Shown piece after piece: positions 32,662-62,095 of a stretch of DNA of 64,000 nt. The first letter of the stretch is position 1; each line of letters begins with the position of its first letter. Position numbers and translations under genes: made by a program. A model generated the notes under the pieces. That model was not told where the DNA came from, did not search any database, and worked only from the letters and a program-made list of their open reading frames with translations. This DNA comes from Phlyctochytrium arcticum (taxonomy: Eukaryota; Chytridiomycota; Chytridiomycetes; Chytridiales; Chytridiaceae), in assembly GCA_025602905.1 (NCBI GenBank), contig JAHLKI010000033.1, positions 183,306 to 247,305 of the forward strand. The letters are read 5' to 3'.

Positions 32662-33029
32662 AGTGAGTCTGAGGATGCCCTCACTTCGAGACAAATAGTT
32701 ACTAATTAAATATCCGTGATTCGAACCTCCTCGGCTGGATCCAGCGAGTTATCCCGTGACAAACCACTGATTTGTAGGCCAGATTCTGTCCTGGATGTGG
32801 CTTGGCTCTTGGCCCTGCGCCATACCTACGCCACGTCCCTACCTCTTGTAGCCTCACCCCAGCACTCTCTTGTACTGGAGACAATATATACTACTCATCC
32901 TGACTATAGCTCCATCTCAATTCAGCGACCAAATCCTAGCTGGAGTCCGCCGCGATTCGAACCTCCTCGGCTGGATTCAGCGACTGACTCATTATGAGTA
33001 TGAAACTACAAGCCGCCGAGCAAGGCTCA

Positions 33030-33350
33030 GTCAGACGTATTCGACGATTCGACCGAGCTCTGCTCGGAAACCGCAAAGCGGACGAGTAAGTGGTATATAC
33101 ACGTCAACACGTCTCTTACGCATGAAACTACACGCCTTCAGTCAGCTGTATTCGACGATTCGACGAGTAAGTGATATATACGTATCAACCTTCTTCTAAT
33201 ACATCGACTGTATTCATCATTCAATCAGTCGTATTCGACGATTCGACCGAGCTCTGCTCGGAAACCGCAAAGCGGACGAGCAAGTGATATATACGCATCA
33301 ACAAGTCTCTAAAACATGAAACTACACGCCGCCGAGCAAGTTGTATATAG
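33030..33350. repeat. Subterminal hairpin repeats, left arm
   Basis: Three imperfect copies start with TATTCGACGATTCGAC (near 33037, 33149 and 33229) and end with AAGTG(G/A)TATATAC. Copies 1 and 3 contain two small hairpins: CCGAGC-TCT-GCTCGG and CCGC-AAA-GCGG. Each is followed by a CATGAAACTACACGCC-like sequence. Repeated hairpins just inside the terminus may bind a transposition or packaging protein (inference). The mirror copy is at about 59330-59650. Confidence 0.75.
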
Positions 33351-33480
33351 ATAACAAAATACATCAAAATCAAAATGCGCCTAATAGAAACTACGCTTGT
33401 CCTTCTTGCTCCTGCAACGGAGGCATTTTCAGGCAAAATGGTTGGAAACCGATGGATCAGTCTTCGCGTGAAGTCGCACC

Positions 33481-33849
33481 TTAGGGTAGCTTTTTCTTGG
33501 GAACTCGCTTGCCAGTAGGTAACATAACGGATATATCTCGTAGCCGTTCGTTCTCTCGCTCCCCTTGCTGTTCATAAAACGCCACTTTCCATTGTGCAAA
33601 CTCTGTGTCGAGCTTCTGACGCTCAATGGCCATTCGTTCGTTAACAAGATGATCGACTTCGTGCTTGTAGTCATCTGAAATGTTTTTCAGCATACCTTCT
33701 CGCTTCTCGACGCGGGCGCGTTTCCCCACTTCTGGCTTCTTTGCTCTGGCTTTTGCCAAAGCTTCGAGTTTTTTGTCGGAAACCTTCCTAGGAGCTGAAA
33801 TTTCGGAAGGACTTGCTTAAGTGACTTGATTTGATTCTTCAGAGTCCGA
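33481..33849 (-). pseudogene. Small basic coiled-coil protein with early in-frame stop (left copy)
   Basis: The natural start appears to be the ATG of MSDSEESNQVT, upstream at about 33849. A TAA follows codon 11, and the same frame continues (ASPSEISAPRKVSDKKLEALAKARAKK...) to 33481. The part after the stop has a Lys/Ala/Arg-rich segment and then a long charged helix (VEKREGMLKNISDDYKHEVDHLV...), probably a coiled coil, ending in GKRVPKKKLP. The stop is identical in the other arm, so it predates arm homogenisation. Either the gene is dead, the Met at codon MAKARAKK is used (92 aa), or an unseen splice removes the stop. Function unknown; acidic-then-basic small proteins are common in virus-like elements. 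Confidence 0.5.
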
Positions 33850-33918
33850 CATATTTAACGTACTCTGAAGAAAAAAAAATTGTATCAATATACAAAATAG
33901 ATAAGAACAGATAAGAAC

Positions 33919-34425
33919 ATGGAATACATTGTTTGTCAGTTTGCGTATCATACGGCGGTTTATGAGCCAAATGAGGTGCGAGCAGGATCGTATCTGGTCC
34001 AGTGGCATTTCGTCAAGGCTATAAGCAAGGACGTAGCAGCTACGCTTTCTGGCATGAAAAGCTTGATGGAAGGTGATCAACGCAGTGATCGCCATAAGCT
34101 ATCGGCAACTTGTTTGCATCACGATCACGGTTATGATACCCTCGTCGCTTACCTTGCAACAAAAGGAATCACCATAGACTCGTCGTGGCGAAGCTCGATC
34201 CCGGATGCAATAAGTCAACCAGCAGCGGATTTAGGGTCGGGGTCGTCAACGTCTGTCAGTATTCCCATTGTCATAGTGAAAGGTTGTGTCAATTGTATCG
34301 GAAATAACGTCTTGCTATCTAAAGGGGATATATCTAACGTGGAGATCATATCGCCATTACTTTGCAACCAACTACCGTTATTTTCCCAATCAAGGACAGA
34401 GCCGGGGGTCGAACAATCAATATGA
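33919..34425 (+). CDS. Hypothetical protein, 168 aa (left copy)
   Basis: MEYIVCQFAYHTAVYEPNEV... The first ~100 residues look protein-like, with aromatic, His and Cys residues (CLHHDHGYDTLVAYL). The C-terminal part overlaps an opposite-strand open frame and may be read differently after splicing. It starts 70 bp from, and divergent to, the coiled-coil ORF, with an AT-rich spacer that could be a shared promoter. No known domain is recognised. An identical copy is at 58255-58761. Confidence 0.45.
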   Translation: MEYIVCQFAYHTAVYEPNEVRAGSYLVQWHFVKAISKDVAATLSGMKSLMEGDQRSDRHKLSATCLHHDHGYDTLVAYLATKGITIDSSWRSSIPDAISQPAADLGSGSSTSVSIPIVIVKGCVNCIGNNVLLSKGDISNVEIISPLLCNQLPLFSQSRTEPGVEQSI

Positions 34426-34865
34426 CCAATGACCTTGATTGCTTGATTTCCCAACCAGGTTGTGTTTTTGGCGGGCAAAGAACGAGTAACCAGCAGAATG
34501 CTCGTCCCAATGGAAAAATCTGCTAGATTTGGGAAAGTAACAGACGTGGCCAAACCAGGCATTGAGTTTCGTTCGAACGGAAGAGAAATCCCGGCGCCTT
34601 CATTCAAGACTGTGCCGATGAGAATTCGGACGATGTTTTTTTTTCATCCGACCGATGATGACGAGGCTGAGGACGACTCATACGAGCCAGAAGAGCACAT
34701 ATCTTTGGAACTAAATACCTTGCTGCCTACTGTGGTTCCGTTGCTCGCCCCGAAGAAACCAAGTGCCGAGAATTTCGATGGGATTGAAAGGGATAGATAG
34801 CCCGCAGCATTTTTGATGCCCTTCATAAATCCCTTTTGAACCAGCGGAAGTCGCGATTCGTCCAA
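34215..34865 (-). CDS. Hypothetical frame with in-frame TGA, strand uncertain (left copy)
   Basis: One minus-strand frame runs MDESRLPLVQKGFMKG... to a Ser-rich stretch, has a TGA at about 34644, then continues KKNIVRILIGTVLNEG...GISLPFERNSMPGL... to 34215. The second half is rich in Trp, Gly and Asp in a beta-like pattern. The opposite strand (34462-34800) is also open and carries an acidic run, so the coding strand is not settled. No family is recognised. The same structure is in the right arm at 57815-58465. Confidence 0.35.
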
Positions 34866-34900
34866 CTGATGGAATTAATGTCGTTGCTGACTGATGATGT

Positions 34901-35235
34901 CAGACACCGAGTTCCTCAGGAAGTAAATAAGCGATGGGAAGCTCTGAAAAAACAGGTCGTCAATACACCAGGTATTGCAATAGAAACTTTCATGCTTTGT
35001 GACAGGGAAACTTACCTTGGGTGAAGATGCCACTTCCACCGAGTTCGACCAATCCAATCACTGCCGATCCGCCAACCGCCGAAGTCAGCTTTGACTGGAT
35101 GGTACGGCTATCACTCGACGAGCCTCCGAACGAGAGAAATTGGACGTGGAAGGACCTCTTCGAGAAGAAGAATGGTTTCCCGAAATGTACAAAACTGGAA
35201 AGGTGGATAACCTCAAGCGGCGGATTCTGCGGCAT
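34901..35235 (-). CDS. Hypothetical short spliced gene (left copy)
   Basis: On the minus strand a frame from 35235 leads to a very good intron at 34945-35015: CAAG then GTAAGT ... CTGTTTTTTCAG. Splicing would give about 88 aa ending PIAYLLPEELGV with the stop at 34901-34903. The intron is the main evidence for transcription on this strand. The plus strand is open here as well (35021-35260). No known domain. The right-arm copy is at 57445-57779. Confidence 0.3.
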
Positions 35236-35374
35236 GCGGCGAAAGATCCTGCTTCGTTAAAGGTAACATCAGCATCGTCATTGGTCGCCACTGCCAAAAG
35301 TATGTCCACCAGTACAATTACCCGACCGAAACCCTCGTCCTCCCAGGTGCTGTCCTCGCAGCCCACATCCTCGG

Positions 35375-36004
35375 TGCGACTATTAACTCTTTCCCCAAGG
35401 AACGGCTCCTGGTCCTGCGAGAGCGTGCGGCTGGTACCTACAACGTCGCTGCCTACTTTCTCAGTAAAAACATCAGTGAAGGCATTCTTCAAGTCGCCTG
35501 TCCCATCGCCTTTTCCATTATCGCCTACTTTATGATTGGTTTCCAGCTCACCGCCGCCAATTTGTCGTTTTTATCATGTTTATGGTCCTCGTCACTCTGG
35601 CTGCCACCTCCCTCGCCATGATGGTTTCTGCACTTTGCCGCACCACCTCCCTCTCCGTAACCGTTCTCCCCATGGTCCTGGAAATGGCCCGATTATTTCC
35701 TTCTTCCTCTCACCCGCCAACCCCCCCCCCCCCCCCCCCCAAACACTTTATCTGGCTCGACTACACCAGTTACGTCAAGTTTGGCTACATTGGTATCTCC
35801 CTCAACGAACTCTCCGGTTTGGCTCTCCGGTGTACCCCATCCCAACTCGTCGATGGCAAGTGTCCCACAACCAGCGGCGGCCAGACCATCAAAGGCCTGG
35901 GTACCGACAAGATGACCATTGAGGGATGTGCGCTAGCTCTCATCTTCTACATTATCCTCTGCCGCTTCATCGCCTACCTTGGCATCCGATATCTCAAGAA
36001 GTAG
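35375..36004 (+). pseudogene. Captured ABCG (WBC) transporter membrane-domain fragment (left copy)
   Basis: Translation of 35375-36004 matches the C-terminal ABC2-type membrane domain of fungal ABCG half-transporters: INSFPKERLLVLRERAAGTYNVAAYFLSKN, then MVLVTLAATSLAMMVSALCRTTSLSVTVLPMVLEMARLF, YVKFGYIGISLNELSGL, and the end CRFIAYLGIRYLKK with stop at 36004. The frame shifts at about 35555 and again around the poly-C run at 35719-35740. The ATP-binding domain is absent. This looks like a host gene piece picked up by the element, since it lies in both arms. In the right arm it is split by the outer retrotransposon. Confidence 0.8.
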
Positions 36005-36740
36005 TCATCTTTCACTTTTTGTCTGTTTCTATGTTTCTTCTGTATATAGTCCTCGGCCTCTCTACTGTATAAAAAGTATTTATGTCATTTCATCAGTCAA
36101 TCCAAAACACATCATTGAACCAAACACTACGAACCTCTCTTTGTCTGAAGTTTTCCTTGCATATACTGTCGATAGTTTTCTTACGGTATCCCTCACCATG
36201 TTCAGTAGCTATCCCATCCCCTTACGCAAACAACCTTTATATTTGCATTCTAGTTCGAAGTCTCTTTGTCCTATCTTACTCAGTAAACCTTATTGTTCCA
36301 GAGCTAATCCCCGCAGCGTAGCCAACCTTCAATTGGACTTGGCTTCCTTCCTGAGTTGGTAGGTAGGTGGGCGGTGTATGCCAGATTATCCCAGGTCAAA
36401 CTGTCACTATGACAGACTACAAACGCTTGCCGTAAACCATCAGAAAGAAGCGTTTGCGATCTATGTCCAGAATGAGAAGCAAGAGCTCTAATATGGCTCC
36501 GGAGCAGACCGGTTGGTACGCTTAGTCCACTATGCACCTCCGGATTCCGATCGTATGTGCTGCATCCGGCACGTGGCTTAGCCCGTATATACGCGGACGG
36601 GACGTGTCCAGGCCCCAGGGACGTGTTGCTCTTCGCCCATCTTGAACATCTTCAACTTCCTGAATACTTCCGGTAAGTAACCAAAAGTAACTTCTGTCCG
36701 GTATCTTCGGTGTTTGGAGCTCGGTGTTTGCGGCATGATG

Positions 36741-37188
36741 TTCTGGCCTTTGCCAGTGTGGTCTGCAAGTGTAAATCGCACATAGTTTGTGTTGTTGCAG
36801 GAGAATCCATGGAGTGGACGCTTGTTCCCGAGTGCAAAAAGGGCATGCTGAGCTGCTGTTACCTCGGACGTATGGCTAGGTCTTCTCACCCCAGATGATC
36901 CCCTGCTTCTGCGTACAGCGGCCGAAACATTGCCTTCCATATCCTGACATTTGCCCGCTTCCCGATGTCTCTCAGCTGGTTCTGGCCTTTGCCAGTGTGG
37001 TCTGCAAGTGTAAATCGCACATAGTTTGTGTTGTTGCAGGAGAATCCATGGAGTGGACGCTTGTTCCCGAGTGCAAAAAGGGCATGCTGAGCTGCTGTTA
37101 CCTCGGACGTATGGCTAGGTCTTCTCACCCCAGATGATCCCCTGCTTCTGCGTACAGCGGCCGAAACATTGCCTTCCATATCCTGACC
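36741..37188. repeat. Direct duplication, ~208-bp unit, period 239 bp (left copy)
   Basis: 36741-36948 recurs at 36980-37187, including TCTGGCCTTTGCCAGTGTGG and CCATGGAGTGGACGC, ending CATATCCTGAC. A 31-base spacer separates the copies. Together with the right arm (42077-42284 and 42316-42523) the unit is present four times. Matching minus-strand frames (MEGNVSAAVRRSRG...) come from the duplication and show no family. Confidence 0.9.
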
Positions 37189-37257
37189 AGCTGCCACAAC
37201 GAAGCGCGTACCGCATATATACAGCCATAACTAATTCACACCCCATTTGCTCGCAGG

Positions 37258-38853
37258 ATGACGAATCGGACCGAAGACGATGCCCGCAAATACGTTGTGA
37301 AGCGGATCAAAGATGGCACTCTTCGAGCAGTCAACTTCTTCAAATGGCTCGAATCCTCGAGCGCAGAAAAGAAGGTTGCGCAGACCCGATTAAGCAACAT
37401 TTTGCTGAAGATAGTGAACGAGGAGATTCGCATCAAGTGTCCTAATTTGGAGGAGGCGTTGACACTGGCAAAGGCCATCCGACAACAATTGGAAGACGAT
37501 AGCTTCAAATATTATTGGCTCCAGAAACGGCAGGATGAAGAAGGACAAGTGCGCGCCGGGAATTGGTGGGTTCCCGCCCGTAAAAGGTTTGAGGAGTATG
37601 CAGCTGCAGCGCAGCCGCCTCGAACTACCCAAAAGCCTCCGAGTTCGCCAGAGCCGGTTCCGGATTCTCAGGATCTTCAGCTCCAAAAGAGGAAGCGATC
37701 CCCATCGACTCCAGACTTGGAGGACGATGGAAATGCCGCTGATGTTCAAAATCACTTAGTCGACTTGAGGGAAGCCGTTGAGTTTTCTGAAGAGACTCTT
37801 TTGGGACAATGCGGAAGCAATACGTGGATGATAGAGCATGTCAGTGGCTTAATAAACTTCACGAAGGCCATGGATCCATTCCTTCAGCAAAAAGGACGCC
37901 ACCTGTTGAAACTCTGGCGAGATGCCGCAATGGTTGGGGCAGACCAGATGAGAGGAAGTTCCACCGATGAGCTGACGGAGTACCCAATTACGAAGATTAA
38001 AAATTGGTCAGGGGAAGAGTACGGGGCAATCGTCATGGGCCTTGTCGCTCTTCAAGAGACGGGAAAACTGGGTGACGCCGAACCATCATTTCGTCACATC
38101 GTGGGCAAAGTAATGGGGACGGTAAAGACCAGTAGAGCTTACGAACCTTCCGGCATTGAGTTTCAAAGTCTCTGTGGTTGTCTGAAGCGACTATCTAAAT
38201 TGGACGTCAGTCGCCCTGTTCAAGATGAACAAGATGTTCGTTTCGTCTGGGCGGCACTTATTGGTGAATGTCTCCCGGCAAGGTGCCAAACGGAGATTTC
38301 TCTGGAATATCGTCACAATTTTAGCGATGCAGCTGTGACAAAATCCGACATAACAATGTTTGTGCTCCACCGCGCATTCTCAATTGGATATGCAGTCATC
38401 GAAGTCCAACCTGGTGAGGACGAGCCGCACAAAGATCACCATAAGGCACCTGTGGAGCTGTACGAGCAAATCACCAAGTTTCTCCACGCGACGGCGGTCG
38501 ATATGGCTGAAATAGAGCAATTTCGGTTTCATTATGGATTAATATACCGATGGCGAATTGAATGGTTTTGTGTCTATCCCATTGTGATTGGCGACCTGAT
38601 CGTATTGAAAAGGTGCATCGGCCCATCCTTCGCAATCGGACAGTACACGACGAGACTGCTGGCCGCCCTGAACCTTTTTGAGTACATTGTAAAAGAGGTT
38701 TTACCAACTGGCGAGCTCATCCAACGCTCGCTCGCCAGATCACAGACACCGAATGCGGACATTATTGCCAAATTGGCGTGGCGACAACCGAATGCTCAGC
38801 CGGTCTCCCGACGAACAAAATGTTTGTTTACACCGGCAAAATCACGACAATGA
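37258..38853 (+). CDS. 531-aa element protein of unknown function, possible PD-(D/E)xK-like C-terminus
   Basis: Complete intact frame (MTNRTEDDARKYVVKRIKDG...). Residues 1-90 are helical and charged. A Pro/Ser/Gln-rich linker carries a nuclear-localisation-like KRKR near residue 145. From 165 on there is a helical domain with conserved-looking Trp and Cys. Near residues 362-405 the order KSD364-I ... AVIE382-V-Q384 ... HKDHHK resembles a PD-(D/E)xK nuclease core with ExQ, as seen in some effector- and transposon-linked nucleases, but this is inference by eye. The first 413 codons lie in the inverted arm; the last 118 are in the unique centre. The sequence ACTCGCAG lies just before the ATG, so an upstream non-coding exon is possible. 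It is the only long intact gene of the element, so it may matter for its mobility or upkeep. Confidence 0.7.
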   Translation: MTNRTEDDARKYVVKRIKDGTLRAVNFFKWLESSSAEKKVAQTRLSNILLKIVNEEIRIKCPNLEEALTLAKAIRQQLEDDSFKYYWLQKRQDEEGQVRAGNWWVPARKRFEEYAAAAQPPRTTQKPPSSPEPVPDSQDLQLQKRKRSPSTPDLEDDGNAADVQNHLVDLREAVEFSEETLLGQCGSNTWMIEHVSGLINFTKAMDPFLQQKGRHLLKLWRDAAMVGADQMRGSSTDELTEYPITKIKNWSGEEYGAIVMGLVALQETGKLGDAEPSFRHIVGKVMGTVKTSRAYEPSGIEFQSLCGCLKRLSKLDVSRPVQDEQDVRFVWAALIGECLPARCQTEISLEYRHNFSDAAVTKSDITMFVLHRAFSIGYAVIEVQPGEDEPHKDHHKAPVELYEQITKFLHATAVDMAEIEQFRFHYGLIYRWRIEWFCVYPIVIGDLIVLKRCIGPSFAIGQYTTRLLAALNLFEYIVKEVLPTGELIQRSLARSQTPNADIIAKLAWRQPNAQPVSRRTKCLFTPAKSRQ

Positions 38854-39356
38854 GTTGTATATATGTACGTAGATATTTCAATAAAGTTGGTTATATAACC
38901 CTTCTCAGTAAACCATCCTAGCCCGGAAGTGCGCGGCAATTTTCCCGCTGGATTACAGGAGGTCTTGAGGAGAACAAGATTGAATTCATATGTATCACCT
39001 CTGTGAATGACACCAACAGCAAACGAAGAGATGGGCGCCGGAAGTATAGATTGAGCGTGCAGATGGCATAGTTCACTTCGCTCGCAGCTGTATTCACCGA
39101 GTACAGCGTATAGGCAGCCAGATGCGTCAGCAGTGGGTTGGATCTGCGTTACGGTGCGCAGTTGAGGCTGCGGGATGGAAGTGCACGGATGTAGCACTAG
39201 AGTACTCCATTTTGCTCCAAATGTCTGTTCAAAACTCTCCTCGGGCATCACGGACAAGGGAGCATACCATGAGTGGGGGCTGTTTAGGCTGACGCCAGCT
39301 GCTTTGAAAGCTCCACTTCCGCAATCGGGCTGAAAGAGGCATAAATTACGGAGCAA
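38796..39356 (-). other. 186-codon open frame, uncertain
   Basis: Minus-strand frame in the unique centre, overlapping the 3' end of the 531-aa gene by 58 bases. Composition is Cys- and Ser-rich with segments such as HSWYAPLSVMPEESFEQTFGAKW. No family is recognised. It could be a relic gene of the element or chance. Confidence 0.25.
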
Positions 39357-39689
39357 AAGTCATACTACGGAAACCAGACTCAAAAGATAGTGCTTGATTC
39401 CCACGCTCAGCCTTTCGCCCTTCCCCAGCTCATCTTCCGTATTATTCTTACGAGTGCGCCACGTCCTTCCGCCACTCATTCACCTAGGCGCCCTTCCCAT
39501 CTCTTCCTCTCCAACCCCATCAGCTTCTACCTCTGTTGGAATATCATCTCTATTCCTTGCATCCAATCTCACGCTCATTCTCCATCAGCACTTACCCAGG
39601 CAAACTATAATACCACTGTGCATTGGATCAACCGGGGACGCGCACTTAATCCCGATATTAGCCGCGACATACATGTGCAACAGACTAGA

Positions 39690-39880
39690 ATGACTCGCAC
39701 TGCGACAGGGAGTCATTCCTGGCTAATTAATACCTTGATTCTTGGGTTAGGAATCGAGGGGTCCAATTAGTGAGGAATGACTCGCGGCACTCATTCTTGG
39801 CTAAGAATCGAGGCATCAATTAGTAAGAGTCATTCCTGTCTATATACGGCCCCATTCCTGGCTAAGCAAGAATTTTGCTG
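39690..39880. repeat. Cluster of GTCATTCCTGGCTAA / GGAATGACTCGC motifs
   Basis: The words TCATTCCTGGCTAA (39712, and 39851 in part), CATTCTTGGCTAAGAATCGAGG (39792), GTCATTCCTGTC (39829) and GGAATGACTCGC (39773) recur in direct and inverted order within 190 bases. They lie just upstream of the ATPase remnant. Confidence 0.5.
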
Positions 39881-39924
39881 GTCCTGGCTAGCAGCACGGT
39901 CTCATCGCTGGACTTGTCCACAGT

Positions 39925-40452
39925 GTGTACCATAAAGTAATGAATCAGATTATATGGATTAGCCCGACTGTGTTTTACGATGAAGCACCCAAGTCACTAG
40001 CCAAGTACGACAATGTTAGTTTCCGCGACAACATTGATAATGATTCGCTTCAAAACATTTTGGACATTCAAATGATGAGAGCCGAACAAGATCCTAAGAA
40101 GAGTTTGTTATTAGTGCTCGACGACTGCGGCAATATAGCTAAGAGTAAGGAGCTCCGTAAGATCCTTAACAAAATCTATACCACTGGCCGTCACTACTCG
40201 TTGAACCTGCTGTGTGTTTTTCAGGACCGTCGACAATTGGATGGGATCCAGTTTACCAATAGCACCCAGTGGTGTATCTTCAACTGGGACCCTGAGACAT
40301 TTGAAATTCTCGCAAGTAAGCTTGCCACTGTGACCTTTAGAAAGAAAGCATTGACCGAGTTCTTCATCAACAACACCAAAGAGAGATATTCGTTTGTTTA
40401 TATTCACAAAAAGCGATTCCACAAAAAATTTGAAGACGACTATGTTACATAG
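39925..40452 (+). pseudogene. A32 / FtsK-HerA-type packaging ATPase remnant, P-loop missing
   Basis: 175 codons. The order of features is that of A32-like packaging ATPases of Polintons, virophages and large DNA viruses: IIWISPTVFYDE (strand after the P-loop, residues 9-20), Walker B LLLVLDDCGN (Asp66-Asp67) and YTTGRHYSLNLLCVFQD (Gly88-Arg89-His90, then the sensor strand ending in Gln). A C-terminal region with KKRFHKKF follows. No Walker A (GxxGxGK[ST]) exists upstream. The frame is open to a TAG at 39889-39891 and reads LIAG then LVHSVYHKV just where the P-loop should be, as if it were deleted. These ATPases pump DNA into capsids; this one should not hydrolyse ATP. It is the only recognisable viral-type gene in the element. 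Confidence 0.7.
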
Positions 40453-40554
40453 TAGTATAATAGAGAACTAATCCATAAAATGTTCCTTCACGAACTCTTC
40501 CACTTCTGCGTCATATCTTGAAGTGGGTAGTGCCTTTGCCTCCAGTAAGACTGC

Positions 40555-40769
40555 CGCTCTTCTGCAGACATATCCCTGTATATGTTCCCACCAGCTCTGA
40601 TGATGTGTTTTTTTCAATTATTGCGTGCGTGTAATTTTGTCATAGAATTTAACGAATAAAATCTCTGTATAAAAGCAGGCCCCATCTGCCCCTCTCCAAT
40701 GTTAGTATCACAAAAACACATCATCAGAGCTGGTGGGAACATATACAGGGATATGTCTGCAGAAGAGCG
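40555..40769. repeat. 58-bp perfect inverted repeat with 99-base loop (fold-back junction)
   Basis: 40555-40612 is repeated in reverse complement at 40712-40769. The second stem ends exactly where the right inverted arm begins (40768), sharing two bases (CG) with it. This is the footprint expected from a fold-back or template switch: synthesis turned around at about 40613-40711, copied 58 bases back, then jumped to the left arm's inner edge. Confidence 0.88.
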
Positions 40770-42006
40770 CCGTCGCGTGGAGAAACTTGGTGATTTGCTC
40801 GTACAGCTCCACAGGTGCCTTATGGTGATCTTTGTGCGGCTCGTCCTCACCAGGTTGGACTTCGATGACTGCATATCCAATTGAGAATGCGCGGTGGAGC
40901 ACAAACATTGTTATGTCGGATTTTGTCACAGCTGCATCGCTAAAATTGTGACGATATTCCAGAGAAATCTCCGTTTGGCACCTTGCCGGGAGACATTCAC
41001 CAATAAGTGCCGCCCAGACGAAACGAACATCTTGTTCATCTTGAACAGGGCGACTGACGTCCAATTTAGATAGTCGCTTCAGACAACCACAGAGACTTTG
41101 AAACTCAATGCCGGAAGGTTCGTAAGCTCTACTGGTCTTTACCGTCCCCATTACTTTGCCCACGATGTGACGAAATGATGGTTCGGCGTCACCCAGTTTT
41201 CCCGTCTCTTGAAGAGCGACAAGGCCCATGACGATTGCCCCGTACTCTTCCCCTGACCAATTTTTAATCTTCGTAATTGGGTACTCCGTCAGCTCATCGG
41301 TGGAACTTCCTCTCATCTGGTCTGCCCCAACCATTGCGGCATCTCGCCAGAGTTTCAACAGGTGGCGTCCTTTTTGCTGAAGGAATGGATCCATGGCCTT
41401 CGTGAAGTTTATTAAGCCACTGACATGCTCTATCATCCACGTATTGCTTCCGCATTGTCCCAAAAGAGTCTCTTCAGAAAACTCAACGGCTTCCCTCAAG
41501 TCGACTAAGTGATTTTGAACATCAGCGGCATTTCCATCGTCCTCCAAGTCTGGAGTCGATGGGGATCGCTTCCTCTTTTGGAGCTGAAGATCCTGAGAAT
41601 CCGGAACCGGCTCTGGCGAACTCGGAGGCTTTTGGGTAGTTCGAGGCGGCTGCGCTGCAGCTGCATACTCCTCAAACCTTTTACGGGCGGGAACCCACCA
41701 ATTCCCGGCGCGCACTTGTCCTTCTTCATCCTGCCGTTTCTGGAGCCAATAATATTTGAAGCTATCGTCTTCCAATTGTTGTCGGATGGCCTTTGCCAGT
41801 GTCAACGCCTCCTCCAAATTAGGACACTTGATGCGAATCTCCTCGTTCACTATCTTCAGCAAAATGTTGCTTAATCGGGTCTGCGCAACCTTCTTTTCTG
41901 CGCTCGAGGATTCGAGCCATTTGAAGAAGTTGACTGCTCGAAGAGTGCCATCTTTGATCCGCTTCACAACGTATTTGCGGGCATCGTCTTCGGTCCGATT
42001 CGTCAT
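40708..42006 (-). pseudogene. Truncated second copy of the 531-aa element protein
   Basis: The first 413 codons (42006-40768) match 37258-38496. The frame then runs into the fold-back sequence and ends after 19 unrelated residues (...LFCRHIPVYVPTSSDDVFL). The domain with D364 and E382-V-Q384 is kept, but the C-terminal ~118 residues are lost. The 209-bp direct duplication lies upstream of it at 42077-42523, as in the left arm. Confidence 0.9.
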
Positions 42007-42076
42007 CCTGCGAGCAAATGGGGTGTGAATTAGTTATGGCTGTATATATGCGGTACGCGCTTCGTTGTGGCAGCTG

Positions 42077-42523
42077 GTCAGGATATGGAAGGCAATGTTT
42101 CGGCCGCTGTACGCAGAAGCAGGGGATCATCTGGGGTGAGAAGACCTAGCCATACGTCCGAGGTAACAGCAGCTCAGCATGCCCTTTTTGCACTCGGGAA
42201 CAAGCGTCCACTCCATGGATTCTCCTGCAACAACACAAACTATGTGCGATTTACACTTGCAGACCACACTGGCAAAGGCCAGAACCAGCTGAGAGACATC
42301 GGGAAGCGGGCAAATGTCAGGATATGGAAGGCAATGTTTCGGCCGCTGTACGCAGAAGCAGGGGATCATCTGGGGTGAGAAGACCTAGCCATACGTCCGA
42401 GGTAACAGCAGCTCAGCATGCCCTTTTTGCACTCGGGAACAAGCGTCCACTCCATGGATTCTCCTGCAACAACACAAACTATGTGCGATTTACACTTGCA
42501 GACCACACTGGCAAAGGCCAGAA
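42077..42523. repeat. Direct duplication, ~208-bp unit (right copy)
   Basis: Mirror image of 36741-37187: units 42077-42284 and 42316-42523. Confidence 0.9.
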
Positions 42524-48928: not shown

Positions 48929-48988
48929 CTCTTCGACCTACTAGCCTCAACTCTATTTTCAACTTAACCTTATTCTTACTTCTTCACC

Positions 48989-50398: not shown

Positions 50399-50465
50399 TC
50401 TCGGCATGCAATAACGACGCAGGTCGTATGCCGAAGGATGGCCCGCAAAATTAGATAGCCCAACT

Positions 50466-53400
50466 TTGTTGATACATAACTCTAATTCAAATAAAACGGT
50501 CTCCATCAATACTGTGTCCATTGTCTCCGATGAAGTTCAGCAATCCCAAGCTATTGGACAAGAAGACGTACGATCAAAACCCGAGGAACTATCAACTCCG
50601 ATGCAGCCGTCTGGCGCTGTTCGGGCTGCACCGATTGGGAGTTCCCCTGGCGAAGATCGTTACGCTCCGCGTCGTACAGCTTGTGGACCTGAACCGGCCA
50701 TTGCGCCAAATGCCTTTGTCGTTCATGCGAAACTGAATGGCAAAATGGCCCGCATTCTCATTGATACCGGGTGCGATACCCTCATGATCAACGACAAATG
50801 GGTCCGGCATCACAAATTTTCTACCTATCGACCAACCTCTACTATCGAGGTAGAATGGGGTGACGACGGAGAATCCTTCAAGGCGGACCGAATGATGCTA
50901 GGAGCCTTGGATATCTACTGCGACCGCACCAAATGTTCATTCGGCGAACTGCCGTTCATTGTTGCGCCCCTACGCGTAGATGCCATTGTAGGCCTCCCTT
51001 TCATCCTCTCCCTCAAAGGACTCCAGATCGACGAGGTTGACCAACGCCCCCGCATGTCTTTCATGCTTGACGGCGTTCGACACCTTTGCGAAGCAAGACC
51101 GGTTTCACGGAAACGGGAACAAAATCCCTCTTGCAACGCAGCCCACCTACGTACGTTCGACTGCAGACTCGAATCTCCACGACTTCAATCGCCTCTGGCT
51201 TCGGTACAAGGTCTCAAGATTCACCTCAAAGCCGAGAAGTTCTTACGCATGATGCGGAAAAAGGAGTTTACCTCAGTCTATGCAGTTCAAGTTAACGTAC
51301 TCGAGTGGATCGACGGTGATGGGCGTGTGCGAGCTGCTCCAGCCTCCGCGCGAGTTACCGCGGCTGCAAGTTCCAGCACCGCGACTTCGGGACCGAAAGT
51401 GCCGGACGAAGATCCGCTGGCATCAATCCCGCAAGACAACCCGTTACTGTCGATTTTACGAAAATTCAAGAAGACGGTGTTCACGGAGCTACGCAACCTC
51501 CCGCCATCGCGTGGCGAGGACGACTTCAAGATTGAAATCGACGGCGTAGAACGACCTCATTCGGTACCTTTGCGTCCAATGGGTCCGAGTGAACTGGAAG
51601 AACTTAAGCAGCAAATCACGGCATTGCTCGCCAAAGGCTGGATCCGACATTCGACCAGTCCTTGGGGTGCAGCAGTTCTCTTTGCTCCAAAGAAGGACGG
51701 CACTCTTCGTTGTTGTATCGACTATCGGGGGTTGAATAAACAAACGAAAAAAGACCGGACTCCTTTGCCGCATCTCGGAGAATTGCGACATCGCACTGTC
51801 GGCAAAAAGTACTTCTCTCTTCTTGACATCAAGGATGCCTATCACTGCGTTCGGATTCGCGAAGGTGATATCCAAAAGACTGCCTTCAAGACGCGTTTCG
51901 GACATTTCGAGTACGTTGTCATGCCCTTCGGTTTGACCAATGCACCCGCAACGTTCCAACGTATCATGAACAAGGTTTTTGGAAGCATGTACGATGACTT
52001 TGTTATCTCGTACCTTGATGACATTCTCGTCTTTTCAGATACGCTTGAGGAACATCAACGGCACGTCGAAACTGTTTTGACCAGCCTTGAAGCAAGCGCT
52101 CTATACGTCAAACCATCCAAGTGCTCATGGGCCGTACAGGAAGTTGAATTTTGTGGTCATATGCTGGGATCATCCGGTGTGCGAATTGCTGAAAGCAAAG
52201 TTACTGCCGTGAACAATTTCGCCACTCCCAAGAACTTCAAAGACATTCAATCTTTCCTGGGTTTGACCAACTACCTATCATCATACATCGATGATTACGC
52301 ACGGATCGCTCACCCTCTCTCGGAACTCCAGTCTGGCAACATCCGTGGAAGTGGGGTGATGAAGAAATTTCAGCATTCAACACCTTGAAGGAGAAAATTT
52401 CAACGGCTCCAGTTTTGACGCCGTTCGATCCTGCGAAAGAAGTCTATGTGTTTTCGGACGCATCCGGCTTCGCCATCGGCGGATGGCTTGCTCAGCCAGT
52501 TGACGCAGACGATCCCATGCCATCCCCGTTACCAACGACGATACATGGCTTCAAGAACCTGCCGAAATTGCGACCCGTCTTGTACTTTTCTCGGAAAATG
52601 CAAGATGCGGAGACACGATACCCAGTTCACGAACAGGAACTACTCGCGCTCGTCAAAATGTTGAAGGCCAACCGACCGTTCCTTCTCGGACGTCACTTTC
52701 GTGCGTTCGTTGACCACAAATCGCTGATTTATTTACAAGATCAGCAGCATTTGAGTCGGCGACAGGCGAATTGGGTTGAGCTCCTTCAACAGTTTGACTT
52801 CGACATTGAGTACCTCCCTGGTGAATGGAATACGGTAGCCGATGTCCTGAGCAGAAACCCCTACTACGCACCGCGATGTGCTGATTGCGCCCAGCGTGTT
52901 GCGATCAACGCCATCGCCGTGAACTCCGCCAGCATGCCTCTCGACAAGCCTAACCTTGTGGTTTCGGTAAACGCTGCGCGTGCCAAGAAACGTGCCAAGA
53001 AACAACTGGCACAGGCAACACAACAACTCGAGCTCCCACTTGACCTGAAGGTTTGGGCCGAATTGTTGCTTACAGACGACTTCGCTCTTCAAATGCAGAA
53101 GACACTTGAAGACAAGGCATCGGCGCCGCATACCTTGACGGTCCCTGAACGGCGTTATTCCGTGGAAGTCCTTCCGGAGAAAGGCAACAACGGGGAAACC
53201 CTCACCTTGCTCCGTTACGAAGATCGCCTGTACGTACCCGATGCCCTCCGTAGTGCATTGCTCGCGCGATATCACGATACGTTGGTTACGGGTGGCCACA
53301 CTGGTACACATTCGACTTACGGTCGTCTACTGCAAGAATACCATTGGCCCACTATGGAACGCGACGTTGCAGCTTATGTTCGTACATGTGCAACTTGTCA

Positions 53401-54685
53401 ACGCTTCCGAAGTCCCGCACGAGGTGTCGGACTATTACGCTCGCTCCCAGTGCCTGATAAGCGCTGGCACACCATCGGCATGGATCTAGTCTCACTACCT
53501 AGGACGGAATCGTGGGGGGGGGAACCTAGCCATAACGGCGACTACTACGATGCCGCCCTGGTCATAGTCGACTACCTGTCAGGACGTGTGTACCTCATCC
53601 CATGCAACATGGAGATTTCGAGTCAAGAGCTTGCGTACCTCTTCATCCAGCACTTCTTTAAAAACGAAGGTGCTCCCAAGGTCATTGTCAGCGATCGCGA
53701 TAGCCGGATCTTAGCCGAATTTTGGCAATCCTTTACCGCTGCTCTCGGTATCAAGCTAGAGGTGGCGACCGCTCGACATCAGCAGACAGACGGCAAGTGC
53801 GAACGCAAAATCAAGTCTGTCAAGAACGTGCTGAAGGCCTACATAGACGGCGATGGCAAGAACTGGGTTGACATTCTACCCTTGATTGAGTTTCACCACA
53901 ACTCAACACCATCGAATACCGGCTATGCCCCGTTCATGATCGACAAGGGCCGCCTCCCACAGGTCAATGGTGGACACCATACCAGGGAAGGCCTGCAGGA
54001 GATTTCACAGCCAACAAACCAGCAAGTTGTCAAGTTCGTGGACACTCTCCATGAGATCGAACGGGTGGTACAACAACGGTTACGCAATGCACAAGATGTG
54101 CAAGCGCGGAACCATGACAAGGGTCGGCGGACGCTCATCTTCAAGAAGGGCGATTCAGTCTTACTCAAACGCAAGGGAATCCACATTCCAGCTTTGGGCA
54201 AGCTTCCGGAGAAACTTCGCCAAGATTGGCTCGGTCCATTCAAGGTCAAAGAAACCGGTCCGCACCCTGATACCTACACGCTGGAATTACCTCACCCAAT
54301 GCGTATGGTACATCCGACATTTTATGTCGACATTCTGAAGCCGTGGCACAAACCTGGCTCTATTGTCCATCGTGCCACGAAGGACGCGCCGGAACCTGTG
54401 CTGGTCAACAGCGAGGAACTTTGGCTCGTCGACCGTATTCTGGACGAGCAGATCCGTCACAAGAAGCGGAAATACCTAGTTCAATGGGAAGGCTTCGGGC
54501 CGGAGGACTCAACTTGGGAACCGCGGGAACACCTTGAGCAAACCGACGCGCTGAAAGCATGGGAACTAGCACGTCCCTCAGCACCCAAGAGTTCCAAACG
54601 AAAGAAAGCCCAGAAAGAAGCCCCGGCAACCGACACGACGTCTACCGCCGATACCCCATCGAAACGTTCACGACGCAAACGCTAG
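50466..54685 (+). CDS. Inner element pol: protease, RT, RNase H, integrase, chromodomain (one frameshift)
   Basis: The first segment (50466-52388) has the aspartic protease (ILIDTGCDTLMIND) and reverse transcriptase with the intact YLDD box (SYLDDILVFSD). At about 52335-52345 one base is missing relative to a continuous frame. The second segment (to 54685) carries RNase H (VYVFSDASGFAIGGWL), integrase zinc finger (HDTLVTGGHTGTHST ... CATCQRF), the DDE residues (GMDLVSLP, VSDRDSRI, TDGKCERKIK) and a chromodomain (LWLVDRILDEQIRHKKRKYLVQWEGF...STWEPREHL). It is typical of fungal chromoviruses. No ATG is needed if pol is made as a Gag-Pol fusion. Confidence 0.93.
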
Positions 54686-55370
54686 TGACGTCAAGGAAGA
54701 TGTGTTTCATATTTTCAAGTATCACTATTTCTCAACACGAGACAACCTCATTGACTGCTATCAAAGCAAGGAGTGTCCTCTTGCAAACACTCTCTACGTC
54801 ATTTATTACTTTTCGGGACCTCCCATCCCATATCTTGATACTACCTACGCGCGCGCACCATCTCAACACTTTGAGACCCTCATCCAAGGTTGCCCCTTGC
54901 TGACGACGCGTCTCGCACGTCAGAACTCCGGTAGGCCTGATCAGCCTGAGCTGAGTTGATGCATCATCTATGCATAGGTGATGAGAGACCGGGGAAACAT
55001 TTATCTCCGTTATTACGCGTAACTACCCTCCACGCAAGGAAACACACTCTTACCTCTATGCCCGTGATTAACTTGGACACGGAAGGTTGCACACTTTGCA
55101 ACGAGAGTCGCGGGAACTGCATCCAGCAGCATTCATGCCTGTGGACATCAGAAGGCTGGTTTCGAGGGGATCCAACACAATTCAAGTGCTCAAACGTCAG
55201 GCGTTGTTCGGTTTGTTCCCTTGCACCGTTGACACCTATACATGTCTGGCGACGTTCGGTGTATAGTGATGGCCGGTGAGGTTGTGCTGGTGATCTGACA
55301 TTCCACTCTTCCTGCTGACACACGAACCCTGATCTGAGACTCGCTTCTTCCACCTTTTTCAGCACCGAGT

Positions 55371-55380
55371 CTGAGGGGGG
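55371..55380 (+). promoter_or_regulatory. Polypurine tract, inner element
   Basis: CTGAGGGGGG directly upstream of the 3' LTR start; primes plus-strand synthesis. Confidence 0.75.
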
Positions 55381-55607
55381 TGCGGCGGGCTCGTGGTTTG
55401 ATGAGCATTGACCGCACGACTGCGCTAATGCGCATCGTCACGTGTATATTTCTTGTTTTCTTCTGTATATCATTCCCTTACACTGTACATTTTTACTCTT
55501 TACGCTTTTTCTCTTCCTCTGCGCTAAAGCTAATAACACTACCCCGACTCTCGCACCCTGGGAAGGTGCATTACCGTCCATACCAACTCTTAACCGAAAA
55601 CGCTACA
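55381..55607 (+). repeat. Inner element, 3' LTR (227 bp)
   Basis: Identical to 48689-48915; followed by the CATCT target copy and then the outer gag frame. Confidence 0.96.
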
Positions 55608-55612
55608 CATCT

Positions 55613-56834
55613 CATCAACTAAGTCGGCTTCCGGTAAACGATGTAAGCGAGAACCCATCTTGCTAATAACTTCCGGATGTGCCTTCTCCTTGATTTTGGT
55701 GATATAGAGATGCCTACCCATATGCATCCCAACAGTTTCCCATAATCTATCGAGCTCAGACTTCCATTCCAAGAAGGTCTTTGAGCCCTGAGCTGACGCT
55801 TCCCATTCCGCGATGAGCGCAGCATCTGAGTTGGGGTTCAGGAAACGTAGATAAAGCTCCTTGATAAAACAGTCATAGTGTCGCCAGCGGCTGATGCATT
55901 GCTTATACATCTCAAACGCTTTCCCCTCCGGATGCAAAAAGTTTCTCATCAACAGCAGTACTCCTTGTTGAAATTCAGGATCATTGTTCTGAAGATCAAG
56001 CCCTTGTTCTTCGAATGCTCTCGCAATCTCGGCCTCGAAGTCCTTCAGAGTACGCATGTCGGTGTTGCCAATCTTCCCCTTGAAACGAGTTTCAGGCATG
56101 ATGCTCTCGCGGATAAGACGAAAGCGTTTCCTCATCTTTTCAAGCCGTAACTCCTCCAGCCTATCGGTGAGGACGGCGGTGTCCATAGCCGCCCGTTGAG
56201 AAACCAGGGGTGTCGTGGGAGGAGTACCCGTCATAAGTGATCCGCGGGTAGCCTGGCGTTCATCGGGTGCAAAGAGACGCGTTCTCACCATTGGGGTTTG
56301 GTACGGATTACGCGGATCGTAAGAAACTTGACGCGGCGCAGTCGAGACGGGAGCGTGGGAACTTTGTTGACCGGACTCCTCAATATCCACCGATTCCAGA
56401 GCCGAGCGGGCCGCCTCAACCTTGCGCTGCAAGTCCGCAAGTCGGAGACGCTTCACCCTTTTCACTTCGTGTAAGCGATTCAATCGCTCCAACTCCTGCT
56501 CCATTCTCAGAGTTTCCTGATCCAAAGCCAAGGTTTCCTCATCCACCTCTTCTGGAAACACAGTTTCTTCTCCAAAACCTCTAACGGTGTTCTGGGTTAT
56601 ATCCCCCTCTTCCCATCCGGCCTCTTCCTCCCCAGGATCAAGCAGTCCCCGGCTGAATTCCTCCGTGATGCTTTCTGCCAAGTTCTCAAAAGGTGTATTG
56701 TTGACAGTAACTCTCGTGGGGGTCAGCGTGGGCGTGTTCACAGAAGGGTTGAGTCCGAAGGGTGTCATGGCCCGAGCGTTACTTCCTACAGGGGTGGAAC
56801 GATGTACAGGTGAACGAAAGACCGGTCCCACCAT
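55613..56834 (-). CDS. Outer element gag, interrupted by the inner element
   Basis: Starts MVGPVFRSPVHRSTPVG at 56834. The N-terminal part is Pro/Thr-rich, followed by a long coiled coil (LDQETLRMEQELERLNRLHEVKRVKRL), then a capsid-like helical region (FRLIRESIMPE ... FEMYKQCISRWRHYDCFIKEL). The frame reaches LPEADLVDEM at the insertion site and continues in phase at 48688 (ALEDQYRISHKK), with the zinc knuckle there. It is about 407 codons before the break; joined gag-pol would span about 1,941 codons in one frame. Confidence 0.9.
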
Positions 56835-57047
56835 GTTGAGCGAATATAAACAAACGGGTTTTGAGGTGATCTACTTGAGAATTGCGAAAATTGAAGTGGT
56901 TCTAGCGGTACGATCTGATGCTGAATTCAACTCTACCAAAACCGGGCGTCCCCAGCAGTAACTTCAGGCTACAAGTCTCTTCCAGTAGTTTCCGAAGGGT
57001 AGCTAGTCCTTCTTCCGCTACAAGGTGCTACTCTTTAGTCAAAAAAA

Positions 57048-57275
57048 TGTAGTGGCCGAAACTACGGTCTTGAAGGATACGACTGACTGTGTAAAGTAGT
57101 CTTATTCAAGAATATATGTATAGAGGGTTCTATACAAGCGACCTGCCCTTCCACCCTCTGAATCTCCGACGGTTCTTGATCCCGCCAAAAAACTAAGGTA
57201 ACACAACCTTCCCTAATCTATCTAAATTATGAAATCGAACAAACGCTAGAACAAACGCCCAACGCGTCTCCTACA
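57048..57275 (-). repeat. Outer element, 5' LTR (228 bp)
   Basis: Right-hand LTR, 5' in element sense, one visible difference from 43862-44089. The promoter should lie here, reading leftward. Confidence 0.95.
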
Positions 57276-57408
57276 CGTTCCTTGGGGAAAGAGTTAATAG
57301 TCGCACCGAGGATGTGGGCTGCGAGGACAGCACCTGGGAGGACGAGGGTTTCGGTCGGGTAATTGTACTGGTGGACATACTTTTGGCAGTGGCGACCAAT
57401 GACGATGC
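57276..57408 (-). pseudogene. ABCG transporter fragment, right copy (5' part)
   Basis: The remaining piece of the right-arm ABCG fragment, separated from 43260-43861 by the outer retrotransposon; encodes the segment before PKER. Confidence 0.6.
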
Positions 57409-57444
57409 TGATGTTACCTTTAACGAAGCAGGATCTTTCGCCGC

Positions 57445-57779
57445 ATGCCGCAGAATCCGCCGCTTGAGGTTATCCACCTTTCCAGTTTTGTACATTTCGG
57501 GAAACCATTCTTCTTCTCGAAGAGGTCCTTCCACGTCCAATTTCTCTCGTTCGGAGGCTCGTCGAGTGATAGCCGTACCATCCAGTCAAAGCTGACTTCG
57601 GCGGTTGGCGGATCGGCAGTGATTGGATTGGTCGAACTCGGTGGAAGTGGCATCTTCACCCAAGGTAAGTTTCCCTGTCACAAAGCATGAAAGTTTCTAT
57701 TGCAATACCTGGTGTATTGACGACCTGTTTTTTCAGAGCTTCCCATCGCTTATTTACTTCCTGAGGAACTCGGTGTCTG
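57445..57779 (+). CDS. Hypothetical short spliced gene (right copy)
   Basis: Mirror copy of 34901-35235, with the GTAAGT...TTTTTTCAG intron at 57665-57735 on the plus strand. Confidence 0.3.
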
Positions 57780-57814
57780 ACATCATCAGTCAGCAACGAC
57801 ATTAATTCCATCAG

Positions 57815-58465
57815 TTGGACGAATCGCGACTTCCGCTGGTTCAAAAGGGATTTATGAAGGGCATCAAAAATGCTGCGGGCTATCTATCCCTTTCAATCCC
57901 ATCGAAATTCTCGGCACTTGGTTTCTTCGGGGCGAGCAACGGAACCACAGTAGGCAGCAAGGTATTTAGTTCCAAAGATATGTGCTCTTCTGGCTCGTAT
58001 GAGTCGTCCTCAGCCTCGTCATCATCGGTCGGATGAAAAAAAAACATCGTCCGAATCCTCATCGGCACAGTCTTGAATGAAGGCGCCGGGATTTCTCTTC
58101 CGTTCGAACGAAACTCAATGCCTGGTTTGGCCACGTCTGTTACTTTCCCAAATCTAGCAGATTTTTCCATTGGGACGAGCATTCTGCTGGTTACTCGTTC
58201 TTTGCCCGCCAAAAACACAACCTGGTTGGGAAATCAAGCAATCAAGGTCATTGGTCATATTGATTGTTCGACCCCCGGCTCTGTCCTTGATTGGGAAAAT
58301 AACGGTAGTTGGTTGCAAAGTAATGGCGATATGATCTCCACGTTAGATATATCCCCTTTAGATAGCAAGACGTTATTTCCGATACAATTGACACAACCTT
58401 TCACTATGACAATGGGAATACTGACAGACGTTGACGACCCCGACCCTAAATCCGCTGCTGGTTGA
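57815..58465 (+). CDS. Hypothetical frame with in-frame TGA (right copy)
   Basis: Identical to the left-arm frame at 34215-34865, including the TGA after the Ser-rich stretch (about 58034). Confidence 0.35.
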
Positions 58466-58761
58466 CTTATTGCATCCGGGATCGAGCTTCGCCACGACGA
58501 GTCTATGGTGATTCCTTTTGTTGCAAGGTAAGCGACGAGGGTATCATAACCGTGATCGTGATGCAAACAAGTTGCCGATAGCTTATGGCGATCACTGCGT
58601 TGATCACCTTCCATCAAGCTTTTCATGCCAGAAAGCGTAGCTGCTACGTCCTTGCTTATAGCCTTGACGAAATGCCACTGGACCAGATACGATCCTGCTC
58701 GCACCTCATTTGGCTCATAAACCGCCGTATGATACGCAAACTGACAAACAATGTATTCCAT
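58255..58761 (-). CDS. Hypothetical protein, 168 aa (right copy)
   Basis: Identical to 33919-34425 in the other arm; overlaps the opposite-strand frame above. Confidence 0.45.
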   Translation of the reverse strand: MEYIVCQFAYHTAVYEPNEVRAGSYLVQWHFVKAISKDVAATLSGMKSLMEGDQRSDRHKLSATCLHHDHGYDTLVAYLATKGITIDSSWRSSIPDAISQPAADLGSGSSTSVSIPIVIVKGCVNCIGNNVLLSKGDISNVEIISPLLCNQLPLFSQSRTEPGVEQSI

Positions 58762-58830
58762 GTTCTTATCTGTTCTTATCTATTTTGTATATTGATACAA
58801 TTTTTTTTTCTTCAGAGTACGTTAAATATG

Positions 58831-59199
58831 TCGGACTCTGAAGAATCAAATCAAGTCACTTAAGCAAGTCCTTCCGAAATTTCAGCTCCTAGGAAGGTTT
58901 CCGACAAAAAACTCGAAGCTTTGGCAAAAGCCAGAGCAAAGAAGCCAGAAGTGGGGAAACGCGCCCGCGTCGAGAAGCGAGAAGGTATGCTGAAAAACAT
59001 TTCAGATGACTACAAGCACGAAGTCGATCATCTTGTTAACGAACGAATGGCCATTGAGCGTCAGAAGCTCGACACAGAGTTTGCACAATGGAAAGTGGCG
59101 TTTTATGAACAGCAAGGGGAGCGAGAGAACGAACGGCTACGAGATATATCCGTTATGTTACCTACTGGCAAGCGAGTTCCCAAGAAAAAGCTACCCTAA
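58831..59199 (+). pseudogene. Small basic coiled-coil protein with early in-frame stop (right copy)
   Basis: Same as 33481-33849: MSDSEESNQVT, TAA, then the Lys-rich coiled coil ending PKKKLP. Confidence 0.5.
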
Positions 59200-59329
59200 G
59201 GTGCGACTTCACGCGAAGACTGATCCATCGGTTTCCAACCATTTTGCCTGAAAATGCCTCCGTTGCAGGAGCAAGAAGGACAAGCGTAGTTTCTATTAGG
59301 CGCATTTTGATTTTGATGTATTTTGTTAT

Positions 59330-59650
59330 CTATATACAACTTGCTCGGCGGCGTGTAGTTTCATGTTTTAGAGACTTGTTGATGCGTATATATCACTTGC
59401 TCGTCCGCTTTGCGGTTTCCGAGCAGAGCTCGGTCGAATCGTCGAATACGACTGATTGAATGATGAATACAGTCGATGTATTAGAAGAAGGTTGATACGT
59501 ATATATCACTTACTCGTCGAATCGTCGAATACAGCTGACTGAAGGCGTGTAGTTTCATGCGTAAGAGACGTGTTGACGTGTATATACCACTTACTCGTCC
59601 GCTTTGCGGTTTCCGAGCAGAGCTCGGTCGAATCGTCGAATACGTCTGAC
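59330..59650. repeat. Subterminal hairpin repeats, right arm
   Basis: Mirror of 33030-33350, with the CCGAGC/GCTCGG and CCGC/GCGG hairpins and the TATATA(T/C)AC(T/C)ACTT boxes. Confidence 0.75.
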
Positions 59651-59925
59651 TGAGCCTTGCTCGGCGGCTTGTAGTTTCATACTCATAATGAGTCAGTCGC
59701 TGAATCCAGCCGAGGAGGTTCGAATCGCGGCGGACTGCAGCGGGGATTTGGTCGCTGAATCTGGCTGAGGAGGTCCGCCGAGGAGGATCGATTTGCAGCT
59801 GAGTCGAGCCTACAAATCAGTGGTTTGTCACGGGATAACTCGCTGGATCCAGCCGAGGAGGTTCGAATCACGGATATTTAATTAGTAACTATTTGTCTCG
59901 AAGTGAGGGCATCCTCAGACTCACT

Positions 59926-62085: not shown

Positions 62086-62095
62086 AAACACGTGT

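Follow-up and report, generated by a model that had tools for sequence, protein, structure and literature searches.

The window analysed here, a stretch of 64,000 nucleotides from the chytrid Phlyctochytrium arcticum (GenBank assembly GCA_025602905.1, contig JAHLKI010000033.1, positions 183,306 to 247,305), contains a palindromic element at positions 32662-59925 that belongs to the world of Polinton-like viruses (PLVs). On balance, and with modest confidence, we read this element as a non-autonomous inverted dimer: two copies of the integrase-side half of a Tlr1-type PLV, joined together and inserted by the integrase of a helper element. An earlier note, made from the letters alone, had described the unit as a giant palindromic Polinton-like element in a fungus. 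The host is indeed a fungus, and both the Polinton-like affiliation and the lack of autonomy are supported by ends shared with other elements of the genome and by remnants of virus genes.

Several observations confirm that positions 32662-59925 are a real, well-delimited insertion. The unit spans 27,264 nt with the retrotransposons that it carries, begins with AGT and ends with ACT, has an identical 118-bp terminus inverted at its other end, and is flanked on each side by CCCGTC, a 6-bp target duplication; all of these features are as the earlier note had them. When the two flanks of the window are joined computationally, they form a single frame of 302 codons that spans the insertion site, and the domain match in its right part indicates that the element interrupts one member of a host gene family with a GCR1_C domain. 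In the genome assembly (31.48 Mb in 91 contigs, numbered here C1, C3 and so on), the left flank matches one place at 100% and three further places at 70-85%. A paralogue on C41 has homologues of both flanks (70% and 83% alike; 29458-30311 and 29384-29447, both on the minus strand) only 10 bp apart and carries no insertion.

Within these ends the unit is an inverted repeat. Aligned in inverted orientation, 32920-35404 and 57276-59760 are 99.84% identical, and 35400-38499 and 40765-43861 are 99.87% identical, which bears out the near-identical arms proposed earlier, except for a rewritten subterminal stretch on the left. Compared base by base over 32944-38496 (5.55 kb), the arms show a single substitution, at 34623, and a single 3-bp indel. 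Three additional substitutions at 32937-32943 adjoin the rewritten stretch, and a mismatch at 38497 lies just beyond the inner breakpoint. The right end retains the subterminal form typical of the family, which is common to relatives on C1, C3, C11 and C52.

The arms themselves argue against an assembly artefact, a hairpin read or a chimera of haplotypes, which we consider very improbable: they can be told apart by a retrotransposon (gypsy1) in one of them, by the 3-bp indel and the substitution, and by a one-sided 2.06-kb deletion, and the two flanks, each with the 6-bp duplication, are parts of one interrupted gene. What favours an artefact is the end of C8 (994816-1002661), which repeats window positions 54671-62519 with no substitutions and three single-A gaps, yet is attached to another copy of a second retrotransposon (gypsy2) with a different flank. 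Thus, either a misjoin or a very recent duplication has affected one of these two contig ends. The exact terminus of the window copy occurs only on C33 and at this duplicate C8 end. Two head-to-head insertions, or ectopic recombination between inverted copies, could also have created an inverted repeat, since related elements are numerous in the genome and gene pairs in mirror arrangement occur on C40 and C18 as well. This origin is improbable as well, because there is one pair of target duplications and no terminal repeat in mid-element, the arms are almost identical, and the C41 paralogue has both flanks adjacent.

The giant size claimed for the element is not intrinsic: half of its length (43862-57275) consists of two nested Ty3/gypsy retrotransposons, without which the unit measures about 13.8 kb (27,264 - 13,414 - 5 nt). 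The sequence that gypsy1 splits in the right arm is unbroken in the left arm, so that gypsy1 is later than both arms; gypsy2 lies within gypsy1 and is therefore later still. Frames of 1554 and 640/766 amino acids were considered as virus genes and ruled out, as they are gypsy pol.

The palindrome turns at a 99-nt loop between two perfect 58-bp inverted repeats that belong to the end of a 479-amino-acid virus gene (C1:404128-405564). A seemingly unique 2.3-kb centre was considered as a core of the element and ruled out, because it is mostly the remainder of one arm, that is, largely the scar of a one-sided deletion. Positions 38497-40554 (2,058 nt) have no counterpart in the right arm, and the right 58-bp half joins the arm at the equivalent of 38496 via a 2-bp microhomology. 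Because the 58-bp repeats stand at the turn and the 2,058-nt gap is one-sided, an inverted dimer, each arm measuring about 7.95 kb, was probably the earlier form, its broken ends perhaps joined with filler. The right-hand 14-16 nt of the loop are virus-like; the other part is perhaps filler DNA, or it may be native sequence of a true parent that is not in the assembly.

The window copy has both termini intact and contains no complete polymerase, integrase or capsid gene. These genes had been reported as missing, which holds for complete copies; the last ~35 codons of the integrase (33460-33564), however, remain in both arms. Fused to this integrase end is the remnant of a conserved 160-amino-acid gene, and in comparison with C1 about 9.5 kb between the two are missing. 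The packaging-type ATPase remnant recognised earlier was recovered as a Pox_A32 match; it is 89% identical to its counterpart in C1 and 91% to that in C52, and it lacks ~50-60 N-terminal amino acids in comparison with C1. It is not the sole virus remnant: besides the integrase end, four further virus genes have left traces.

Features of the window (positions of the whole stretch) and units with both ends identified; the five 6-bp duplications are given in the order window, C1, C3, C16, C9
Feature	Position	Strand	Remarks
Left target-duplication copy, CCCGTC	32656..32661	.	
Left terminal inverted repeat, 118 bp	32662..32779	+	identical to right one
Left arm	32662..38496	+	mirrored by right arm
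Rewritten left subterminal stretch	32780..32943	+	alignment
rve integrase 3' end and sequence after the gene	33369..33564	-	95% DNA identity to C1; mirrored at 59116-59311
Conserved 160-aa virus gene, remnant	33490..33897	-	mirrored in right arm
174-aa virus open reading frame	33901..34422	+	94% aa identity to C11 relative; mirrored at 58258-58779
Conserved 257-aa virus gene, C-terminal part (aa 145-257)	34233..34571	-	
Cargo, 5.3 kb	34577..39862	.	replaces ~0.55 kb between 257-aa gene and ATPase
Captured host fragment, ABC-2 type transporter 3' end and 3' flank	35382..36090	+	mirrored in right arm
531-aa open reading frame, orphan	37258..38850	+	
A32-type packaging ATPase, remnant	39892..40452	+	Pox_A32 1.3e-6
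479-aa virus gene, C-terminal remnant	40471..40613	-	in-frame stop
Left half of 58-bp perfect inverted repeat	40555..40612	+	
Loop, 99 nt	40613..40711	.	
Truncated mirrored copy of 531-aa gene	40708..42006	-	first ~416 aa
Right half of 58-bp perfect inverted repeat	40712..40769	-	
Right arm, inner part	40765..43861	-	
gypsy1, chromodomain Ty3/gypsy, in right arm	43862..57275	-	long terminal repeats 99.6%; duplication CGTTC
gypsy2, nested in gypsy1	48689..55607	+	long terminal repeats 100% identical; duplication CATCT
Right arm, outer part	57276..59760	-	
Right terminal inverted repeat, 118 bp	59808..59925	-	
Right target-duplication copy, CCCGTC	59926..59931	.	
Interrupted host GCR1_C-domain gene, right portion	59932..60772	+	domain match, joined frame
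Window unit	32662-59925		duplication CCCGTC
C1 unit, 21.1 kb	C1:389919-411004		duplication TCCAGC
C3 unit, 16.1 kb	C3:108065-124162		duplication CTCAAT
C16 unit, 3.0 kb	C16:622993-625978		duplication AAAGGC
C9 unit, 7.3 kb	C9:226015-233266		duplication AAGGCC

A search of the genome with the termini, suggested earlier as a check, found relatives with the same ends, 6-bp duplications, and integrase and polymerase-type genes. The 119-bp end has 17 matches genome-wide, and the end pattern has 20, against 10 for a reversed control pattern, so that part of the pattern matches are due to chance. Both ends were identified in five units, and all five have exact 6-bp duplications; together with kilobases of near-perfect inversion this far exceeds chance. 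For C52, C4, three ends on C11 and others, no second end was identified in the stretch examined. The C16 unit has a single recognised gene, an open rve integrase of 378 amino acids, and is a minimal transposon derived from a PLV, and the C9 unit is filled by a copia element; the clean duplications of both indicate that small derivatives are mobile with these ends.

The C1 unit is the fullest guide to gene content. Its order is rve integrase (in two frames), a 1193-amino-acid-type gene, a fibre-like gene (Av_adeno_fibre) and genes of 260, 434 and 160 amino acids; then three overlapping frames (400570-401875), a 174-amino-acid-type gene, the 257-amino-acid gene, the A32 ATPase and genes of 479 and 263 amino acids; and last a polymerase-helicase protein split over two frames. 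The C3 unit has an rve integrase, an Av_adeno_fibre-type protein and a superfamily 1 (SF1) helicase; the ATPase block is absent from it, and its 434-amino-acid gene is interrupted by a stop. The rve domain was matched at 9.8e-14 in C3 and 4.8e-14 in C16, and the C1 integrase was recognised by similarity. The A32 ATPase frames are open in C1, C11 and C52.

The polymerase-helicase protein is open over 1307 amino acids in C11 and 1301 in C3. Inspection by eye found DINNNYPS, read as motif A of PolB, and RTD, read as motif C with its first Asp changed; a Walker A motif, GKPGVGKT, stands at the start of the SF1 helicase match in Pfam, and the domain scan gave no PolB family match for this protein. 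Passages of PMC11071308 describe Tlr1-like helicases as combining the palm of a protein-primed PolB (pPolB) with an SF1 helicase, the first Asp of motif C being changed. Going by these motifs, read by eye rather than from a tree or a model, the polymerase-helicase of the relatives looks like the Tlr1 type. The 434-amino-acid protein is a capsid candidate: its gene lies within 5 kb of an A32-type ATPase at 12 of 15 loci, the distant ones being ~1.9-2.7 kb away. Its fold model has a pLDDT of 38, its best matches in the PDB (E 0.017) and Pfam (E 0.028) are non-significant and non-capsid, and it is absent from the window copy. A library scan found no protease family among 10 open reading frames of C1, 10 of C3 and 10 of other relatives; scans of IMG/VR with the capsid candidate and the ATPase returned no relatives, and a PHROGs search yielded nothing useful.

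The following course of events would produce the element. In a C1-like genome of ~21 kb, a deletion reaching from the integrase across the fibre and capsid-candidate genes would have removed ~9.5 kb, and a 5.3-kb cargo with the end of an ABC transporter gene and a 531-amino-acid gene would have been added beside the ATPase. A break within the 479-amino-acid gene would then have left the integrase-side half alone, and two identical halves would have been joined tail to tail, by fold-back or by sister-end joining, into a dimer whose ~7.95-kb arms flank the 99-nt loop and end in a virus terminus on either side. Formed in this way before integration, the dimer could have been inserted with a 6-bp duplication by the integrase of a helper element, its proteins acting in trans, which is possible because both ends are intact. 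The one-sided 2.06-kb deletion, the rewriting of the left subterminal stretch and the two nested gypsy insertions would have followed, the deletion presumably at this point in the order.

Another possible, though rather unlikely, origin is that the palindrome formed after integration, by gap repair primed from a terminal inverted repeat: the right half would have been broken, and the right repeat would have invaded the left one, copied ~8 kb inward and joined the break with filler. On the one hand, such repair accounts for the loop filler equally well, explains why the arms are identical and the duplication correct with no need for a palindrome that replicates, and agrees with a palindrome at a single locus. 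On the other hand, it needs priming from a short repeat (118 bp here; 183 bp at 93-94% in C1 and C3), and the derivatives of 3.0-21.1 kb with clean duplications show that altered genomes do integrate; neither objection is strong.

Several points weigh against a half-genome dimer that formed before integration. Some 84 nt of the loop have no counterpart in C1, C11 or C52. A simple self-primed fold-back requires no filler, so that a step of end joining is likely, and as filler in the loop is also expected from repair after integration, it fits that origin too. The nearest relative changes from piece to piece (C1/C3 for 33369-33890, C11 for 33898-34576, C52 for the ATPase); thus, the window copy is a mosaic, and its exact parent lies outside the DNA compared. 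Every helper gene has an open version in one copy or another, and none of the copies seen has the full set open: the integrase and polymerase-helicase of C1 are split, C3 is defective in the ATPase block and the capsid candidate, and C11 and C52 were seen in part. The capsid identity of the 434-amino-acid candidate is unproven, and the turning point is not known from any other independent copy.

Among known systems, the family resembles Tlr1-type PLVs in the rve integrase, terminal inverted repeats and polymerase-motif protein with SF1 helicase of the relatives, and in the A32-type ATPase of C1, C11 and C52. The window copy differs from them in being palindromic, in having no complete gene of this kind, including the pPolB-motif/SF1-helicase protein, and in carrying a piece of a host transporter and an orphan gene. 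Of the features expected of PLVs in general, terminal inverted repeats and short target duplications (6 bp, within the expected 5-6 bp) were found, as was an A32/FtsK-type ATPase, as a remnant in the window and not in C3. Long inverted repeats, 6-bp duplications, rve integrase and A32 ATPase are also shared with Polintons/Mavericks; in contrast to those, C1 and C3 gave no match to a separate protein-primed PolB and have a polymerase-helicase fusion instead. A PF03175-type PolB was considered for the parent and rejected, as none of its 14 genome matches falls inside C1 389919-411004, C3 108065-124162 or the window element.

Elsewhere in the genome, a PolB and an integrase (40-48% identical to that of C16) lie within a few kilobases of each other at C25:407225-412094, C54:9068-13937 and C26:396302-401019, and the same pairing occurs at C6:702586-707257, C7:987073-991759 and C3:282466-287246. 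These pairs, whose integrases form a second group, are probable classic Polintons of the same genome.

Sections of PMC7805220 report a PLV integrated in the genome of the chytrid Spizellomyces punctatus, and PLV genes in Allomyces as well. The S. punctatus group resembles the present family in its chytrid host and its integrated state; according to the same sections a chitinase occurs in 52% of that group, whereas none was found among the 30 open reading frames of C1, C3 and other relatives. The suggestion of an undescribed non-autonomous lineage therefore survives in part: the element is non-autonomous, but chytrid PLVs are already known, and the novelty is the palindromic, cargo-bearing, non-autonomous form. 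According to a passage of PMC10120064, a large protist survey left out fungi. Judged by title or the start of the abstract, no open-access paper on palindromic PLV copies was among the matches listed, which is weak evidence of absence, and the stem "palindrom" is absent from the main texts of PMC10120064, PMC12220804, PMC11071308, PMC12721341 and PMC3671162.

By analogy, the nearest mechanistic parallel would be the defective snapback genomes of adeno-associated virus (AAV), which passages of PMC8235507 describe as symmetric or as asymmetric with a loop. In snapback or copy-back genomes one genome end is duplicated in inverted orientation around a loop, with the virus termini outermost, and this structure is found in the window copy. 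AAV differs in being a parvovirus with hairpin telomeres; the window copy is an integrated duplex whose loop seemingly contains filler.

It is conceivable, if doubtful, that the locus represents a defective-interfering genome, now endogenised, of a double-stranded DNA virus of fungi, namely a palindromic half-genome that replicated and integrated with helper proteins of its relatives. If so, snapback or sister-fusion dynamics of PLVs would have left a genomic fossil at this site, and the mirror-arranged copies on C40 and C18 would stem from the same tendency. A palindrome formed before integration would be evidence on how PLVs replicate and generate defective forms. According to a 2023 statement in a passage of PMC10640383, no double-stranded DNA virus infecting fungi was known. 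The genome holds long PLV relatives together with minimal and defective derivatives under the same end rules, so that a single fungal PLV family offers a direct test of helper-satellite relations; how defective PLV genomes arise can likewise be tested, thanks to the turning point and the relatives resident in the same genome.

The 5.3-kb cargo has no match in the relatives fetched for comparison. The host fragment that the earlier note had seen in it is the end of an ABC-2 type transporter gene, with 77% DNA identity to C33:251-945 and a homologue on C53 too. The 531-amino-acid gene has 21 genome matches, two in the window element and the other 19 at 16 places, and in protein databases it matches just the window's own two records. 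A virus marker is found no farther than 20 kb from five of the 19 matches, at 5 of the 16 places, and the zones this close to a marker make up 5.6% of the genome; the 65 marker places (38 ATPase, 12 of 14 PolB and 15 capsid-candidate matches, two PolB matches being dropped as second pieces of the same gene) are not independent loci. In the C-terminal domain, SLE, KSD, EV and HKD positions are kept in 4 of 4 aligned sequences and faintly recall PD-(D/E)XK nucleases. A firm nuclease label was rejected, as the position two residues after the Glu of EV, where PD-(D/E)XK enzymes should have a lysine, varies (Q, Q, D, A) and the libraries gave no support. Mirror-placed genes of this family, with an ATPase near the midpoint, occur at C6:97633-133599, and at C15:723743-742860 the contig stops soon after the same left half, as though assembly had been halted by an inverted repeat.

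A32-type ATPases have at least 38 matches in the 31.5 Mb of this genome (e.g., C1:1311857, C4:887541, C17:16046, C18:181937 and C23:276518), and among 14 control genomes the family is matched in 2; this genome seems to harbour several PLV families side by side. At C40:8384-30903 and C18:112085-132849, two gene pairs per contig are exactly mirrored (coordinate sums 39287 and 244934). Tight palindromes were considered for both and rejected: the 200-nt pieces at the mirror centres are not self-complementary, so these are further long PLV inverted repeats, with spacers longer than 200 nt.

Outside the element, the window has units of ~120 bp in tandem (6.8 copies) in a low-GC stretch at 25592-26390. 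In the right flank there is a 146-bp tandem repeat at 62440-62782, near which positions 61800-62000 have more than 30 further dispersed matches in the genome.

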